A stretch of 64,000 nucleotides of DNA from Methylophilaceae bacterium 11 (GTDB lineage Bacteria > Pseudomonadota > Gammaproteobacteria > Burkholderiales > Methylophilaceae): contig JCKJ01000001.1 of the NCBI GenBank assembly GCA_000525025.1, forward strand, positions 868,001 to 932,000, given 5' to 3'. The number at the start of each line of letters is the position of its first letter. The first letter of the stretch is position 1. Made by a program: the position numbers and the translations under genes. Shown piece by piece: positions 15,949 through 50,521 of this stretch. The notes below the pieces were generated by a model. The model made no database searches and was not told where the DNA came from. It saw only the letters and a list, made by a program, of their open reading frames with translations.

Positions 15949-15975
15949 CTTGCAAGGTAATATCTGCCTTGCAAG
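15949..15975. terminator. 9-bp hairpin after the RlmL-like gene
   Basis: CTTGCAAGG and CCTTGCAAG pair exactly around a 9-base loop, starting 10 bases after the stop codon. No T-run follows, so it is a stem-loop with uncertain terminator strength. Its presence argues against a start at 15969 for the next gene. Confidence 0.5.
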
Positions 15976-16142
15976 CTCATAATTATAAAAATAATCACAA
16001 TCACCTCTGGTATCCATATTTTTTTGATACCTCATACTTTGCATTTAGTGCACGATTCACAGTCTTGCTACATGCTCTGCGCGTAACACATGGTTTGTCA
16101 TCCAATCACAAGAACATTAGTTGGGTAAAAAGGGGAGAGTGT

Positions 16143-18419
16143 GTGGAAAGTCTTTTAGGATTATTAATTCCAAGCGAGTTCATGCCACACGGGCATTGTT
16201 ATTTGTGGACGCCAGTGTTGTTGTGGCTATACGTAGTTTCCGATAGTGTGATCGCACTCTCATATTTCACTATTCCGCTTGCACTCTTATATCTGGTCAA
16301 AAGGCGTGCCGATATTGAGTTCAACTGGATTTTTGTGATGTTCTCGGTATTTATCTTTGCCTGCGGCATGACCCATTTAGTGTCGATTGTCACGATCTGG
16401 ATGCCTGCGTATTGGGTAGATGCAAGCATCAAGGGCATTACAGCAATCGCTTCTGCGCTCACTGCTTTCATGTTGTGGCGGTTGATGCCAATCGCACTCA
16501 CCATGACCAGCACCAAACAACTTCAAAAGAACATCGATCAACTGCAATATGAAGTCAAACAGCGTTTGCAGGCAGAGTCTCAATTAGAGGAGCTCAATAA
16601 CAATCTGGAAGCGATCGTGCAACAGCGCACGCAAGCGTTAACCAATGCAAATGCTGAGTTGCAGCATGAAATTGATCGCCGAAAAACGATTGAACACGCT
16701 TTATTTAAAGAGAAAAAGCAAGCACTGGTGACCTTGGAGTCCATTGCAGATGGCGTGATTACGACGGACATGAGCTCTAATGTCACGTATTTGAACCCTG
16801 TTGCAGAATCTATGACTGGATGGACGAAAGAAGATGCCATAGGTAAGCCTGTGCTAGAGGTGTTTAGAATTCTCAATGAAAGTACACGTAAATTGGCAGC
16901 CAACCCGGTTGATGTGGTGCTGGCGCATGGGCAGGTATGTGGGCTAGCCAATCACACCATGCTGATTGCTAAAACAGGCCAGGAGTTTGCCATTGAGGAC
17001 TCAGCCGCGCCGATTAAAAGTGAAGGCGGAGAAATGCTGGGTGTGGTGCTGGTGTTTCATGATGTGAGTAGTGCCAAGCAAATGGCCGAAAAAATGTCCT
17101 ACTTGGCAGAGCATGATTTCCTCACCGATTTGCCTAACCGACTATTGTTGACAGACCGTATTACTCAAGCGCTGGGCGCAGCCAAGCGTAAAAAATCTAG
17201 AGTGGCCATCATTTATTTAGATATTGATCACTTTAAGAAAATTAACGATACCTTGGGGCATGACGTTGGGGATCAATTACTTAAATTTTTAAGCAGAAAA
17301 TTACAAGCTTGTATTCGCACGACAGACACCATTAGCCGCCAGGGTGGTGATGAATTTGTGATTCTGCTTTCTGAAGTCGATAGCCCAATGGCGCCTGCGG
17401 AAATCGCACAAAAACTACTGAATGCAACGAACGATTACTACCAGATTGGTACCCACGAGTTAAAGGTGTCGGCCAGTATAGGTATTTCAATTTATCCTGA
17501 AGATGGCAGTACCGCCGACATGCTGATGCGTAATGCCGATGCAGCCATGTATTATGCAAAAGGCTTGGGCAGAAACAATTATCAATTCTTTACTAAAGAG
17601 CTCAGTACACGTATCGCCGATCAAGTAGCGCTCGAGAATCGTTTGCATAAAGCTGCCAAACAGCATGAGTTTATATTGATGTACCAGCCGAAAGTGTCAC
17701 TCAAAACCGGTAAGATAGTCGGCGCTGAAGCGCTGATTCGTTGGCAGCACCCTGAAAATGGCATCATCGCGCCGAATGTGTTTATCCCAACCGCTGAGGA
17801 TACGGGGTTGATTAAGGTGATTGGGCAGTGGGTGTTGTCAGAGGCTTGTCGTCAAAATAAAGCATGGCAAGCCATGGGGTTGCGGCCGATTCCTATTGCG
17901 ATTAATGTATCGGCAGTCGAACTCAGACATTCAGGTTTTTTAAACGAAGTGTCAAAAGTCTTATTGCAAAGTGGTTTGAACCCGCAATACCTGGAGCTGG
18001 AAGTCACTGAAACAGTTGCGATCCATGGTGATAGCGAAGGTATTCGTGATTTAATCTCGCTTAAAGACATGGGCGTGAGGTTATCGATCGATGATTTTGG
18101 CACTGGTTTCTCAAGCTTGTCTTATTTGAAACGGTTGCCGATTGATACTATTAAAATTGATAAAAGCTTCATTCGTGATATTAAAACGGATGCCAATGAT
18201 GCAGCGATTATTACGGCGATTATTAAAATGTCACACAGTTTAAACTTTAAGGTGATTGCAGAGGGGGTAGAAACTGCTGAGCAATTGGCTTATCTTAAAC
18301 AATATGAATGCGATGAGATTCAAGGGTTTTATTTTAGTCAACCACTCACGGCGGAAGATTTTTCAGCATTATTGCAGTCAGAAAGAATGCTAGAAGCCTT
18401 GCAGCCGGACACTGTTTGA
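16143..18419 (+). CDS. ethylene-receptor-like sensor with PAS, GGDEF and EAL domains (c-di-GMP signalling)
   Basis: 758 residues from the GTG at 16143, chosen because a ggggag Shine-Dalgarno lies 5 bases upstream and family proteins open with this segment; an ATG at 15969 would add a tail that looks random. The N-terminal three-helix membrane domain (about 20-115) matches the ethylene-binding domain of ETR1. Asp34, Tyr41, Ile71, Cys74 and His78 correspond to ETR1 Asp25, Tyr32, Ile62, Cys65 and His69, all offset by nine; Cys and His hold Cu(I) in ETR1. A coiled coil (about 125-190) and a PAS domain (about 195-318) follow. The GGDEF domain is intact at 401-405 and the EAL domain at 529-531, with DDFGTGFSSL and EGVET kept. 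It can therefore make, break or sense c-di-GMP. The ligand is inferred, not shown. Confidence 0.9.
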   Translation: MESLLGLLIPSEFMPHGHCYLWTPVLLWLYVVSDSVIALSYFTIPLALLYLVKRRADIEFNWIFVMFSVFIFACGMTHLVSIVTIWMPAYWVDASIKGITAIASALTAFMLWRLMPIALTMTSTKQLQKNIDQLQYEVKQRLQAESQLEELNNNLEAIVQQRTQALTNANAELQHEIDRRKTIEHALFKEKKQALVTLESIADGVITTDMSSNVTYLNPVAESMTGWTKEDAIGKPVLEVFRILNESTRKLAANPVDVVLAHGQVCGLANHTMLIAKTGQEFAIEDSAAPIKSEGGEMLGVVLVFHDVSSAKQMAEKMSYLAEHDFLTDLPNRLLLTDRITQALGAAKRKKSRVAIIYLDIDHFKKINDTLGHDVGDQLLKFLSRKLQACIRTTDTISRQGGDEFVILLSEVDSPMAPAEIAQKLLNATNDYYQIGTHELKVSASIGISIYPEDGSTADMLMRNADAAMYYAKGLGRNNYQFFTKELSTRIADQVALENRLHKAAKQHEFILMYQPKVSLKTGKIVGAEALIRWQHPENGIIAPNVFIPTAEDTGLIKVIGQWVLSEACRQNKAWQAMGLRPIPIAINVSAVELRHSGFLNEVSKVLLQSGLNPQYLELEVTETVAIHGDSEGIRDLISLKDMGVRLSIDDFGTGFSSLSYLKRLPIDTIKIDKSFIRDIKTDANDAAIITAIIKMSHSLNFKVIAEGVETAEQLAYLKQYECDEIQGFYFSQPLTAEDFSALLQSERMLEALQPDTV

Positions 18420-18881: not shown

Positions 18882-19382
18882 TTATAACACAGCTAAAGCT
18901 GCGTCATAGTTTGGCTCGTTTGCAATTTCGCTCACCAGTTCGCTATGCAGCACTTTATTGTTTTCATCTAATACCACCACTGCACGTGCAGTTAAGCCAG
19001 CCAAGCTACTATCGACAATATTGACACCAAAGTCATTGGCAAACTTTGCAGTGTCACGGAAAGTAGAGAGTGTTACGACGTTCTCAATGCCTTCTGCACC
19101 GCAAAAACGGCTTTGGGCAAAAGGTAGGTCAGCCGAAATGCAGAGCACAACGGTATTGTCTATCTTGCTTGCTTTTTGATTAAAAGTACGTACAGAAGTC
19201 GCACAAGTAGGCGTATCAATACTTGGAAAAATATTGAGCACTTTACGTTTGCCAGCATAAGCGCTTAATGATTGTAATACACGCTTTGCATCTGCTAATT
19301 GAAAGTCTGGTGCGGTTTGACCAACGCTAGGGAAGTTACCACCTACTGTTACTGGGCCGCCTTTAAGAGTGACTGTCGACAT
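18882..19382 (-). CDS. tpx: thiol peroxidase Tpx (atypical 2-Cys peroxiredoxin), copy 1
   Basis: 166 residues from the ATG at 19382, which has an aaggag Shine-Dalgarno five bases upstream; the longer in-frame reading from 19442 is not needed. The peroxidatic Cys60 lies in [10 protein letters not shown] and the resolving Cys94 in SRFCGAEG, the standard Tpx pair. A third cysteine (Cys81, VVLCISAD) is not usual. Tpx reduces hydroperoxides with electrons from thioredoxin. The second copy lies directly upstream on the same strand, so the two are tandem paralogues. The 148-base gap between them suggests a separate promoter. Confidence 0.93.
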
Positions 19383-19530
19383 GAATATTCTCCTTAATAA
19401 TGAATGAAATATGAATTGTTTATTGTTATGGTCAATATCCACATCGTGAATAAATCACTCAATGGATGTTGTGATTAAATCGTAGAAAACAGTAAGGTAT
19501 CACTTAGATAGCATATTGAACATATGCCAA

Positions 19531-20034
19531 TTACTTTAATGCTCTTAACGCTGCTTGATAATTAGGTTCGTTAGCAATTTCCGGAACCAATTCTACGTGT
19601 TTGACTACATTGTGTTCATCCGCAATGATAATCGCACGCGTGGCTAATCCAGCCAGTTTGCTAGTGACGATGAGTACGCCATAATTTTTAAGCATATCGC
19701 GTCCGCGCAGAGTAGATAAATTAATGACTTGGTCTAGGCCTTCAGCCGCACAGAATCTATTTTGGGCAAAAGGTAAATCAGCAGAAATATTGAGCACAAC
19801 TGTATTTTTCATGCCGCTTGCGAGTTGGTTAAAGCGTCTTACAGAGCTGGCACAGGTAGGGGTGTCGAGGCTCGGAAAAATGTTAAGCACTTTACGTTTT
19901 CCGGCAAAATTATCTAAGGTCGCATCGTCAAGATTTTTATCGACCAATGTAAATTCAGGGATGTGCTCTCCCACTTTTGGTAAAACGCCCTCGATGAGAA
20001 CAGGGCTTCCCATCAAAGTTACGGCATTAGGCAT
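19531..20034 (-). CDS. tpx: thiol peroxidase Tpx, copy 2
   Basis: 167 residues. The peroxidatic Cys61 lies in DTPTCASSVR and the resolving Cys95 in QNRFCAAEG. The central part ([28 protein letters not shown]) is nearly the same as in copy 1, while the N-terminal third and the 100-130 region differ strongly. This pattern fits an older duplication with divergence around the active-site rim, perhaps toward different hydroperoxide substrates. It lies between the FIST gene, from which a terminator separates it, and copy 1. Confidence 0.93.
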   Translation of the reverse strand: MPNAVTLMGSPVLIEGVLPKVGEHIPEFTLVDKNLDDATLDNFAGKRKVLNIFPSLDTPTCASSVRRFNQLASGMKNTVVLNISADLPFAQNRFCAAEGLDQVINLSTLRGRDMLKNYGVLIVTSKLAGLATRAIIIADEHNVVKHVELVPEIANEPNYQAALRALK

Positions 20035-20145: not shown

Positions 20146-21306
20146 TCAGGCGAGTACGTTTTCGCTTAAATAGCCAATCGTCATGGTTTGATTATGTAGC
20201 ACGCTGTCTGAGGTATTGGGGCGTGGCGCAAGCTCGCCATAAGAGTAAAAGCCAGTGATATTGGTTTTGGCCCCCAATATCAGTTGAACCTGTTTGACTT
20301 CATCCACCACCTGCTCAGCCATCACACCTTTGCGGCCTACGCAACTTACACATAAAGCTAAACCGGTTTGATTGGTTTTGTTCTCGCCCAAGCCATCCAT
20401 TACTAGTTCAGCGGCTGCGCCAGCACCCTCCACTAGGCGATCATGGTTGGTTTGACATAAACGTACGGTTTCGCCTTCCTCCACGTTGCCTGCAAAGGTG
20501 AGGCTGTTGTTATCGGCATTCACGGCGAGTAATGTGCGGATTTTCTCTACATCGCGCTTACCTTCTTCGATGATGGCCAATGGGAATTTAAGTCCCGTAC
20601 CCGGCAAGCCTTTGGAAAAGGCTTCACCAATATACATGCGGTACAGCGGTAGGGCAGGTTTGCCGTCCATTTCGTACACAATATTTTTTTCTGATTTGGT
20701 GATTTTTCGTGGGGGACCATACGGTTTCCAGCCACCCAAGGCACCACTGGATACAATCAAAGAGTCACCATATAAGCCCACCGCGATAATCATGCCGTCA
20801 GACACGGTCTCGTTAAATATCTGTAGTGTTTTTACAAAAGCACCGCCATCACCCGCTAAGCCACCAATAATGGGGACTTCACCCAATACGCTTTGGAAAC
20901 CTTTGAGGAGTTCGGATCCGTTTACATTTAAACCATCTGAAATCACCAATAATGCTTTTAACGTGTTGTCTTTTAACTGCTTACCTAATAAAGCAGCTGT
21001 TTCAAATGAGTTTTGCATGCCAGACATTTTGGTTTGCGCTACACGTTGCACTACTTTTTCCCACATAATGGCAGTGATTTGAATGCTGTCATCAAAGACA
21101 CCATTTGCATTAATTTCACCCGATGTGGTACAGCCGATGACTTGTGCAGTTGGGTAGCGCGCTTTTAAGTAGGATTGCAATTTACCTTCCGAAAATCGCT
21201 TCACTGAAGAGAAAGCGAGCACCAGATTGGCGGTTGGAAGTGGTGATGTAGCAGGTAGATCTTTGAGTGCGCCCTTGGCATCTACAGATTCTTGTCTGAT
21301 TAACAT
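20146..21306 (-). CDS. FIST-domain sensory protein (FIST_N + FIST_C)
   Basis: 386 residues. The FIST_N domain (about 25-220) shows LVLAFSSVKRF, AQVIGCTTSGEI and the glycine-rich VPIIGGLAGDGGAF. The FIST_C domain (about 230-370) shows LPLYRMYIGEAF, ALCVSCVGRKGVMAEQ and the tail ITGFYSYGELAP. FIST proteins are thought to sense small ligands such as amino acids and are often linked to chemotaxis or c-di-GMP genes. No output domain is fused here, so it probably acts through a partner. It is divergent from the pil-chp cluster, with 234 bases between the start codons. Confidence 0.9.
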   Translation of the reverse strand: MLIRQESVDAKGALKDLPATSPLPTANLVLAFSSVKRFSEGKLQSYLKARYPTAQVIGCTTSGEINANGVFDDSIQITAIMWEKVVQRVAQTKMSGMQNSFETAALLGKQLKDNTLKALLVISDGLNVNGSELLKGFQSVLGEVPIIGGLAGDGGAFVKTLQIFNETVSDGMIIAVGLYGDSLIVSSGALGGWKPYGPPRKITKSEKNIVYEMDGKPALPLYRMYIGEAFSKGLPGTGLKFPLAIIEEGKRDVEKIRTLLAVNADNNSLTFAGNVEEGETVRLCQTNHDRLVEGAGAAAELVMDGLGENKTNQTGLALCVSCVGRKGVMAEQVVDEVKQVQLILGAKTNITGFYSYGELAPRPNTSDSVLHNQTMTIGYLSENVLA

Positions 21307-21540: not shown

Positions 21541-21927
21541 TTGTCCAACAGTGATTTAGCAGCAGTAAAAGTCATGGTAATTGACGACAGCAATACTATT
21601 CGACGCAGTGCTGAAATTTTTCTAAAAAATGCAGGGTATGCAGTTATCTTGGCAGAGGATGGTTTTGACGCGCTCTCTAAAATCGCCGATCAGCACCCGC
21701 AAATTATCTTTATTGACATTATGATGCCGCGTTTGGATGGCTATCAGACCTGTAGTTTGATTAAACGTAATGATCGATTTAAATCTACCCCAGTCATTAT
21801 GCTTTCCAGCAAAGACGGTTTGTTTGATCGTGCTCGTGGCCGCATGGCCGGTTCAGATGAGTATCTGACCAAACCGTTTACGCAAGAAACACTGGTGGCA
21901 GCTGTTACTGAGTACGTAAAAATTTAA
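21541..21927 (+). CDS. pilG: type IV pilus response regulator PilG (CheY-like)
   Basis: 128 residues from a TTG start, ten bases after an aggag. It is a single receiver domain: acidic pocket VIDDSN, phospho-acceptor Asp59 in FIDIMMPRLDG, Thr/Ser and Lys in MLSSKDG and TKPFT. In Pseudomonas aeruginosa PilG takes phosphate from ChpA and promotes pilus extension and cAMP signalling. First gene of the pilGHIJ-chpA operon. Confidence 0.9.
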   Translation: MSNSDLAAVKVMVIDDSNTIRRSAEIFLKNAGYAVILAEDGFDALSKIADQHPQIIFIDIMMPRLDGYQTCSLIKRNDRFKSTPVIMLSSKDGLFDRARGRMAGSDEYLTKPFTQETLVAAVTEYVKI

Positions 21928-48374: not shown

Positions 48375-50521
48375 TGAACATTTTAATTGCGGAAGATGAC
48401 GATAATTCTAGGCAATTGCTGGTGGATTTATTCCAATCTAAAGGTCATGGGGTTTCCAGTTTTGATAATGGGTTAAAAGCGCTTGCCTATTTACATTCCC
48501 ATAGCGTTGATTTGATTGTTTCAGATATTTTGATGCCAGAAATGGATGGCTATGGCTTATGCCGTGCGGTCAAACAAAATATCTCCATGCAAAGTATTCC
48601 GTTTGTGTTCTATACCGCCACCTATACGTCTAGCCAGGATGAGCGCTTTGCCATGTCACTGGGCGCCTCTGCTTTTTTAATTAAGCCAATGGACTTGCAA
48701 GCGTTTCTGGGTGTGATTGCTGAGGTGACTAAATCCGGCGCCAAACAACCCCGAGTGGCTAAAGGACGTGGCTTGTATCGCGTTGCCCCGGTTAAATTTG
48801 ATAAACAGCATACTGACATCGTCCGGGCAAAATTAGATAAAAAAATTATCGAGCTGAACCAAGAGCGTCAAAAACTGATTGAAAGTGAAGCGCGTTTTAG
48901 AGATTTTGCCGAAGCCTCGGCCGATTGGTTTTGGGAGGCAGATAGCGCGCTCAATATCCAAGCATTGAGTGGTGCACCAATGGGTTTGAGCGTATGTAAT
49001 CTGCAAGATATTGCCAAAGCCTGCCAAAGTCACTTAGCTGATGACATGTTGAGCGTATTGCAACAACGGTTGCCATTTTCAGACTTTATTGTGCATTTTA
49101 TCGATGCGCATGAAAAGCATATGTATTTGCGCGTATCAGGCAAACCAATCTTTGATGACCAACTTAAATTTATTGGTTATCGGGGAGTGGGGAAAGATGT
49201 CAGTGAAATGATTGCGCTCAATCGCAAAGTGGAGTTTTTGGCTTCGCACGATGAGCTGACAGGATTGCCTAACCGGAGTGTATTCAAAATTAACTTGGCA
49301 CAAGCGCTCAAAAAGGCAGAGCGTCATCGCCAGCAAGTATTACTTTTATATTTTGATATCGATCATTTCAAACTCGTGAATGACACATTGGGACATGAGG
49401 CGGGTGACCAACTGTTGATGATGTCGACCAAGCGCATTATTGAATGTGCACGTGAGATTGATGTGTTGTACCGCATGGGTGGAGATGAATTTGTGATGGT
49501 GATTGAATCAGCCACGCCACAAGATGCGCATCGCATTGTGCGAGATATCGTCAAAGCGTTTTCCATGCCATTTGAGATTATGGAACAGCGTGTGTATACC
49601 ACCGTGAGCATTGGGGTAAGCGTGTATCCAGATGACGCCACAGATTTGCAGACGCTGCTGACGTATGCAGATTTGGCCATGTACCGTGCAAAGCAAAATG
49701 GGCGTAATAGCTTTGAGTTCTATACCCCCAACATGAATTTCATCCCCAAAGAGTGGATGGACATGGAACATGGAATACGCCTTGCATTGCGTAAACATGA
49801 GTTTCATATGGTGTATCAACCGCAGTTAGATGCTGAGCGTAACGTAGTGGTTGGTATGGAAGCACTGATTCGCTGGACTCACCCGGATCACGGTTTAATT
49901 TCGACCATTGAGCTGATTCGTGTGGCCGAGCAATCTTCGTTGATTAATACGCTGGATGATTGGGTGCTAGAAGAGGTTTGTAGGCAAATGCGTGTTTGGC
50001 GAGAGGCAGGCTATGTATTGCCGCGCATGTCCGTCAATATGTCAGCAAGGCATTTAAGATCAGATAACTTAATGAATTTACTCAATAATATCCCTAAGCA
50101 ATATGGCATTGAGCCAGAGATGTTATGCATAGAAATTACCGAGCATGCAATATTGGAAGAAAGCGCCACTGTTAAAAATAACATGCAGGCGATTAAAAAG
50201 GCCGGATTTGGCATATCGCTGGATGACTTTGGTACCGGGCATTCTTCATTGTTATATCTCAAGCGCTGGGCGGTGGACGAAGTGAAGATTGAGCGTACGT
50301 TTGTAAACGACTTAGTGAGCTCGGATGAAGATCGCGCCATTGTAAGGGCGATGGTGGCATTAGCCGAAGCGTTGGATTTGGATTTGGTAGGTGAAGGCGT
50401 AGAAAACCAGCATCAGGCGGACATTCTACTGGCTAGTGGTTGTAGGGTCATACAAGGCTATTTTTACTCGCCACCTGTGCCACCGGATCAGGTGACACAG
50501 TGGTTCAAAAAAACAGATTAA
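48374..50521 (+). CDS. response regulator with PAS, GGDEF and EAL domains
   Basis: 715 residues. Receiver (Asp51 in LIVSDILMPEMDG), a coiled coil (LDKKIIELNQERQKLIESEA), a PAS-like part (ADWFWEADSALNIQ...), an intact GGDEF domain (YRMGGDEFVMVIES) and an intact EAL domain (GMEALIRWTHPDHG, SLDDFGTGHSSLLYL, GEGVENQ). It should turn the upstream kinase signal into c-di-GMP synthesis or breakdown. The stop overlaps that of the convergent helicase gene (TTAA at 50518-50521), so no terminator separates them. Confidence 0.93.
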   Translation: MNILIAEDDDNSRQLLVDLFQSKGHGVSSFDNGLKALAYLHSHSVDLIVSDILMPEMDGYGLCRAVKQNISMQSIPFVFYTATYTSSQDERFAMSLGASAFLIKPMDLQAFLGVIAEVTKSGAKQPRVAKGRGLYRVAPVKFDKQHTDIVRAKLDKKIIELNQERQKLIESEARFRDFAEASADWFWEADSALNIQALSGAPMGLSVCNLQDIAKACQSHLADDMLSVLQQRLPFSDFIVHFIDAHEKHMYLRVSGKPIFDDQLKFIGYRGVGKDVSEMIALNRKVEFLASHDELTGLPNRSVFKINLAQALKKAERHRQQVLLLYFDIDHFKLVNDTLGHEAGDQLLMMSTKRIIECAREIDVLYRMGGDEFVMVIESATPQDAHRIVRDIVKAFSMPFEIMEQRVYTTVSIGVSVYPDDATDLQTLLTYADLAMYRAKQNGRNSFEFYTPNMNFIPKEWMDMEHGIRLALRKHEFHMVYQPQLDAERNVVVGMEALIRWTHPDHGLISTIELIRVAEQSSLINTLDDWVLEEVCRQMRVWREAGYVLPRMSVNMSARHLRSDNLMNLLNNIPKQYGIEPEMLCIEITEHAILEESATVKNNMQAIKKAGFGISLDDFGTGHSSLLYLKRWAVDEVKIERTFVNDLVSSDEDRAIVRAMVALAEALDLDLVGEGVENQHQADILLASGCRVIQGYFYSPPVPPDQVTQWFKKTD

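Follow-up and report, generated by a model that had tools for sequence, protein, structure and literature searches.

An ethylene receptor-type membrane domain joined to GGDEF and EAL domains in one protein of a Methylophilaceae bacterium

In the plant ETR1 family, the ethylene-binding part comprises three membrane helices with seven binding residues, and passages of PMC13012798 place Cys65 and His69 of ETR1, the Cu(I) ligands, on helix 2. The output part consists of a GAF domain and a kinase-like region, in some members with a receiver, and without c-di-GMP domains as far as the family is described in parts of PMC6586836. Bacterial receptors with an ETR1-type domain are known as well. SynEtr1/UirS (Slr1212) of Synechocystis PCC 6803 has a histidine kinase output and a light-sensing GAF domain (passages of PMC7700396), and ethylene alters phototaxis, motility and biofilm formation (parts of PMC5812497 and PMC6682694). 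In Azospirillum brasilense, as reported in passages of PMC11819568, residues 1-130 of AzoEtr1 bind ethylene, the D35A and C75A variants did not restore biofilm formation, with a caveat about expression, and cyclic di-GMP (c-di-GMP) is lowered by ethylene by a receptor-to-response pathway that is unknown. Varied outputs of bacterial ethylene receptors have already been noted (PMC7700396, in part), and the coupling of the membrane domain to the output is listed as unanswered in passages of PMC13012798. Among the open-access papers listed as matches, judged by title, start of abstract and passages, none describes a fusion of the ETR1_N domain with GGDEF or EAL; Papon and Binder (2019) may show one.

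Here we describe such a fusion in a stretch of 64,000 nucleotides of Methylophilaceae bacterium 11, probably a methanol-consuming organism (contig JCKJ01000001.1, positions 868,001 to 932,000; hereafter the window). The gene occupies positions 16143..18419 of the window (plus strand, as do all features of the gene given below) and encodes a protein of 758 residues, arranged as ETR1_N, a long helix, PAS, GGDEF and EAL according to the translation, Pfam and a comparison of orthologue starts. The GTG start at 16143 is preceded by a GGGGAG ribosome-binding site (16132..16137). A longer frame beginning with TTG at 15969 was considered and rejected, because the two nearest orthologues, loci L060 and L061, share with the window both the GTG and a similar purine-rich stretch. 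The ethylene-binding-type membrane domain spans residues 1-126 (16143..16520), and its match to the Pfam profile ETR1_N (PF25487) at residues 26-120 is far beyond chance, with 123.6 bits against a curated cut-off of 27 (E 4e-36). It is followed by a PAS domain (PF00989, 49.5 bits; residues 198-308, 16734..17066), a GGDEF diguanylate cyclase domain (residues 322-479, 17106..17579) and an EAL phosphodiesterase domain (residues 499-734, 17637..18344), and all four matches exceed their curated cut-offs. The catalytic residues were assigned as is customary for GGDEF and EAL domains. The GGDEF motif, its RxxD I-site and the EAL catalytic residues are all intact, as the earlier note on this DNA had claimed, which puts the protein in the class of hybrid GGDEF-EAL proteins, with activity as predicted from the residues. 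Pfam and the sorting of reading frames found no kinase domain in the protein; GGDEF-EAL stands in its place, and the protein is thus not a two-component receptor of the AzoEtr1 and SynEtr1 type. A profile search of the genome (one contig, 2.79 Mb) located ETR1_N at a single place, the gene described here.

All seven residues that the earlier note had matched to the ethylene-binding residues of ETR1, i.e. D34, Y41, I44, P45, I71, C74 and H78, are present in the translation from 16143. The full list of the seven in ETR1 reportedly goes back to Wang et al. in 2006; their number and the identity of D25, I35, P36, I62, C65 and H69 are given in published passages, and Y32 is a residue that we take to be one of the seven and the equivalent of Y41. 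The constant offset of nine from ETR1, also claimed earlier, holds when followed through AzoEtr1: passages of PMC11819568 align ETR1 D25, C65 and H69 with AzoEtr1 D35, C75 and H79, and the window protein is offset from AzoEtr1 by one. The codons of C74 (16362..16364) and H78 (16374..16376) correspond by alignment to those of the Cu(I) ligands C65 and H69, whose role is given in parts of PMC13012798. The coupling lysine is present as K97, which aligns with K98 of AzoEtr1 and hence with K91 of ETR1.

An AlphaFold2 model of the membrane domain, built from 23 sequences (mean pLDDT 83.5; residues 10-16 below 50), predicts, in agreement with hydropathy, helix 1 at residues 24-54 (16212..16304), bearing D34, Y41, I44 and P45, and helix 2 at residues 61-86 (16323..16400), bearing I71, C74 and H78. 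Helix 3, predicted at residues 90-119 (16410..16499), bears K97 by alignment. The predicted fold thus has three membrane helices with both putative Cu(I) ligands on helix 2, one turn apart (a matter of helix position, not of distance), and it is compatible with the proximity of C74 and H78 on which the earlier note had staked its reading. In a second model, residues 124-201 (16512..16745) form a single continuous helix of 78 residues from the membrane domain to the PAS domain, with block pLDDT values of 93-97 at residues 131-190, and the PAS part is mostly below 50. Neither a sequence search (no match up to E 1) nor a fold search (85 matches, none with an E of 0.001 or lower) gave a solved structure of the membrane domain, and EPR data on ETR1 agree better with an ab initio model than with the AlphaFold model, according to passages of PMC13012798.

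The window protein is clearly akin to AzoEtr1, a bacterial receptor with published ethylene binding. Two plasmid records of A. brasilense encode a 525-residue protein with D35, C75, H79 and K98, which was taken as AzoEtr1 because its length and numbering fit the parts of PMC11819568 that describe it, the strains being different from those of the paper. Over 126 aligned positions, the membrane domain of the window protein shares 58 residues (46%) with it. Both proteins carry this domain at the N-terminus with all key residues and a PAS domain next to it, but AzoEtr1 continues as a histidine kinase with an adjacent response-regulator gene, whereas the window protein has GGDEF and EAL in the same chain. 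SynEtr1/UirS and the plant receptors likewise share the membrane domain with the window protein and differ from it in the output parts mentioned above. From the enzymatic side, the best PAS-GGDEF-EAL model is DibA of NCBIfam, which matches residues 160-740 with 532 bits; the ethylene-type domain falls outside this match. Identity with the DibA equivalog was rejected, as its curated cut-off is 980 bits.

Site conservation was scored on an alignment of 101 ETR1_N rows, 33 of them with GGDEF (one, the split gene L134, was not scorable). The Cu(I) ligands are the best conserved of the seven residues, with C at the position of C74 in 99 and H at that of H78 in 98 of the 101 rows, and the surrounding D, Y, I, P and I are each kept in 90 to 95 rows. 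All seven are retained in 25 of 32 scorable GGDEF rows and in 38 of 53 rows labelled as histidine kinases. Within the fusion type of the window, the seven residues together with K97 are kept in every scorable row (14/14, window included, L134 left out), and two other fusion types of the family keep all seven residues in 4/5 and 5/6 rows. The proportion falls to 2/7 in a GGDEF-only group that belongs to a different family of the order (L144, L145, L147, L150, L152, L155 and L157), in which D34 is replaced by N in five rows and K97 by R in six and E in one, none having K. According to parts of PMC13012798, a D-to-N change at the D25-type position of ETR1 lowers affinity about 100-fold and leaves a working receptor. 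These seven proteins form a naturally occurring set whose affinity is likely altered.

Altered sites among the c-di-GMP fusions also include L133 and L157, as well as two class-level GGDEF-EAL fusions outside the 101-row counts: L219, with S in place of P45, and L221, with N in place of D34 and D in place of K97. In the GGDEF-EAL protein of L133 (5899-8538), positions 41 and 74 carry C and Y, respectively, as though the two had been swapped, and the N-terminal PHGxC stretch is gone; judged by these residues, the protein has a rearranged metal site or none. In the window protein, the PHGxC stretch followed by W22 lies near the N-terminus (16185-16208), and H16, C19 and W22 are kept in 95, 96 and 98 of 101 rows, respectively. 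To our knowledge, this stretch is absent from plant ETR1. It could form a second metal site or an entry site.

The earlier note had regarded a direct link of this domain to c-di-GMP as an unusual signal path, and in this respect it needs correction: in the family of the host, the domain usually occurs with a c-di-GMP output, and such outputs have more than one origin. The sampling of ETR1_N genes covered four levels (the family, the rest of the order, the further class and the phylum), and outputs were sorted from the reading frames, the histidine kinase labels being rough, as they rely on phmmer with two kinase stretches. ETR1_N occurs in 28 of 150 genomes of the family, the host's own included, as 29 genes (two places in genome G099 belong to a single split gene and are counted once). 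Twenty-six of these genes carry c-di-GMP domains, namely GGDEF-EAL in 21 (split gene included), GGDEF alone in four and a frame cut by a stop within GGDEF in one, and the remaining three carry kinase domains. In the rest of the order, GGDEF without EAL was found in 7 of 23 fetched loci (two sub-cut-off places stand outside the count), with GAF ahead of GGDEF in both of the two proteins checked with Pfam. The further class gave GGDEF-EAL in 2 of 11 loci, with four sub-cut-off places, and two already in the phylum set, outside the count. No c-di-GMP output was found among the 29 members of the phylum sample, outside which were left a 78-base fragment and one sub-cut-off place. Consequently, a c-di-GMP output is the rule in the host's family, recurrent in the class and not seen in the wider phylum sample.

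In eight proteins inspected with Pfam, the membrane domain is followed by PAS-GGDEF-EAL, double PAS-GGDEF-EAL, PAS-GGDEF, GAF-GGDEF or PAS-kinase, and two of 22 named loci are GGDEF-EAL. The 15 rows sorted as 'other' appear by eye to be HisKA_2/HWE-type kinases, fragments, unclear cases and one HD-type protein, Pfam having been applied to L066 and L119 of these. L066 (5962-7137), a protein from a metagenome-assembled genome, has the same membrane domain joined to an HD_5 domain, and was read as an HD-GYP phosphodiesterase because of this domain and a GYP motif. Nineteen plasmid records, from Azospirillum and cyanobacteria among others, match the domain (the reading frame was checked in two of the 19), and with regard to a phage origin, the phage collection gave no match.

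For the number of origins, a tree of the membrane domain was calculated from 132 columns and 98 rows, the small number of columns limiting its resolution; L134, L185 and L186 were dropped from the 101 rows, L060 and L061 were omitted as likely the same contigs as L120 and L123, and L219 and L221 are absent. On this tree, the c-di-GMP label (33 rows, L066 included) changes seven times, and at least four changes are forced by well-supported branches. These results show that c-di-GMP fusions of this domain arose more than once. A single clade for all 33 c-di-GMP rows was rejected (p-AU 0.00014), and a single clade for the 14 rows of the window's type was not (p-AU 0.20); in the best tree, this type is not one clade, the kinase L062 falling within it.

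From these results, a hypothesis regarding the function may be put forward. We consider it probable, judging from the residues and domains described, that the most likely function of the protein is ethylene-to-c-di-GMP signalling within one membrane-bound chain. Cu(I), presumably loaded onto C74 and H78 of helix 2, would bind ethylene or a close alkene; the binding would alter the three-helix bundle, probably via the D34-K97 pair, and the change would run down the predicted continuous 78-residue helix, the supposed signal path, to the PAS domain. The balance between GGDEF, which makes c-di-GMP, and EAL, which breaks it, would then shift and change c-di-GMP turnover, and by analogy with Azospirillum, ethylene would most likely lower the net level. 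The earlier note had proposed, in hedged form, a sensor of ethylene, another small pi-ligand or copper acting through GGDEF and EAL, which is consistent with family membership, residue conservation, purifying selection, the predicted fold and kinship with AzoEtr1. The altered sites in L133, L157, five of the seven GGDEF-only proteins, L219 and L221 would count against the ethylene-receptor reading.

That the site reports the availability of membrane Cu(I) rather than ethylene, so that c-di-GMP tracks copper status, appears quite unlikely to us. Such a sensor would be in line with the near invariance of the two Cu(I) ligands and of the additional N-terminal PHGxC stretch; however, the five further residues that matter for ethylene binding by ETR1 are retained almost as widely, and a copper Kd near 1e-15 M for ETR1, given in parts of PMC6586836, is more in keeping with a fixed cofactor than with a signal that binds reversibly. 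It is also unlikely, although less strikingly so, that the copper site responds to CO, to redox state or to an alkene other than ethylene, or that sensing is really done by PAS, with the membrane domain serving just to anchor the enzyme. PAS is placed between the membrane domain and the enzyme, and within the fusion type its conservation exceeds that of the membrane domain in 10 of 12 comparisons, for which reason it might be the main or a second sensor, and the Synechocystis receptor doubles as a light sensor (PMC5812497, in part). On the other hand, the retention of eight metal-site and coupling residues in all scorable rows of the window's type is more than one would expect of an anchor, and the site is also largely preserved in relatives whose inner part is a kinase, GGDEF alone or of HD type.

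The distribution of the gene within the genus bears on whether it might be an inherited relic that is no longer used. It is present in 9 of 22 genus genomes, and no match was found in the other 13, a few of which are incomplete. In all nine loci it lies between rlmL and mazG; rlmL was matched in 11 of the 13 genomes that lack it, and in every one of these mazG follows within about 200 bases. Among the nine copies, L122 and L134 are broken: an in-frame stop interrupts the former, and the latter is divided over two reading frames. The patchy presence and the broken copies imply that the function is dispensable, and both would fit decay. The window copy, however, is intact, and compared with the two nearest orthologues, dN/dS is 0.04 or less in nine of ten domain comparisons, the tenth being not computable. 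The membrane domain is 93% identical to that of L060; against L120 and L123 it shows dN of 0.03-0.04 and dN/dS of about 0.02, an imprecise ratio given dS of 1.6-2.3. We therefore regard a decaying relic as very improbable: the gene comes and goes yet is constrained where intact, and both its sensor domain and its enzyme are genuine, undamaged and subject to selection.

The preferred reading, an ethylene-responsive c-di-GMP enzyme, bears on how a bacterial ethylene receptor brings about a change in biofilm: a sensor and a c-di-GMP enzyme in one protein would remove the intermediate steps. By analogy, this suggests that the fusion offers a route for the ethylene-driven drop in c-di-GMP seen in Azospirillum, and it would represent a simple, testable path from a plant gas to bacterial behaviour. 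The repeated fusions also provide natural variants, such as N for D34 or R for K97, in which the coupling of membrane domain and output can be studied. A wider proposition, which we find conceivable but lean somewhat against, is that a connection to c-di-GMP is the natural wiring of ethylene sensing in Pseudomonadota, made by independent fusions, more than once, of the receptor domain with each of the three classes of catalytic c-di-GMP domain (GGDEF, EAL and HD-GYP), that these fusions are the missing link behind the c-di-GMP drop in Azospirillum, and that ethylene serves the family as a cue for living attached or free near plants or algae.

Within the cell, the protein would be one input among many, as the genome contains 39 GGDEF places, along with one PilZ place and one copper-ATPase place above the cut-off. 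A second GGDEF domain of the window itself lies at 49241-49708 (genome 917241-917708), in a 719-residue frame. Downstream of the gene, a pilGHIJ/chpA-like cluster, named by eye, begins at 21541. In stretches from other genera, the rlmL and mazG neighbours were not found, and other matches, to FIST, pilG and pilJ, were weak (25-33% identity); within the genus, pilH and pilI matches were found in 4 of 9 stretches, window included, some of which may end earlier. As synteny is not kept beyond the genus and pilH and pilI are found in four of nine stretches, the proximity of the pil genes is no evidence of a functional link; twitching, an attractive output given the pilGHIJ-type genes, thus gains no support from synteny. 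Between the fusion gene and this cluster, two tandem thiol-peroxidase-like genes (18882-20034, minus strand) adjoin a FIST-like gene (20146-21306), as judged by eye.
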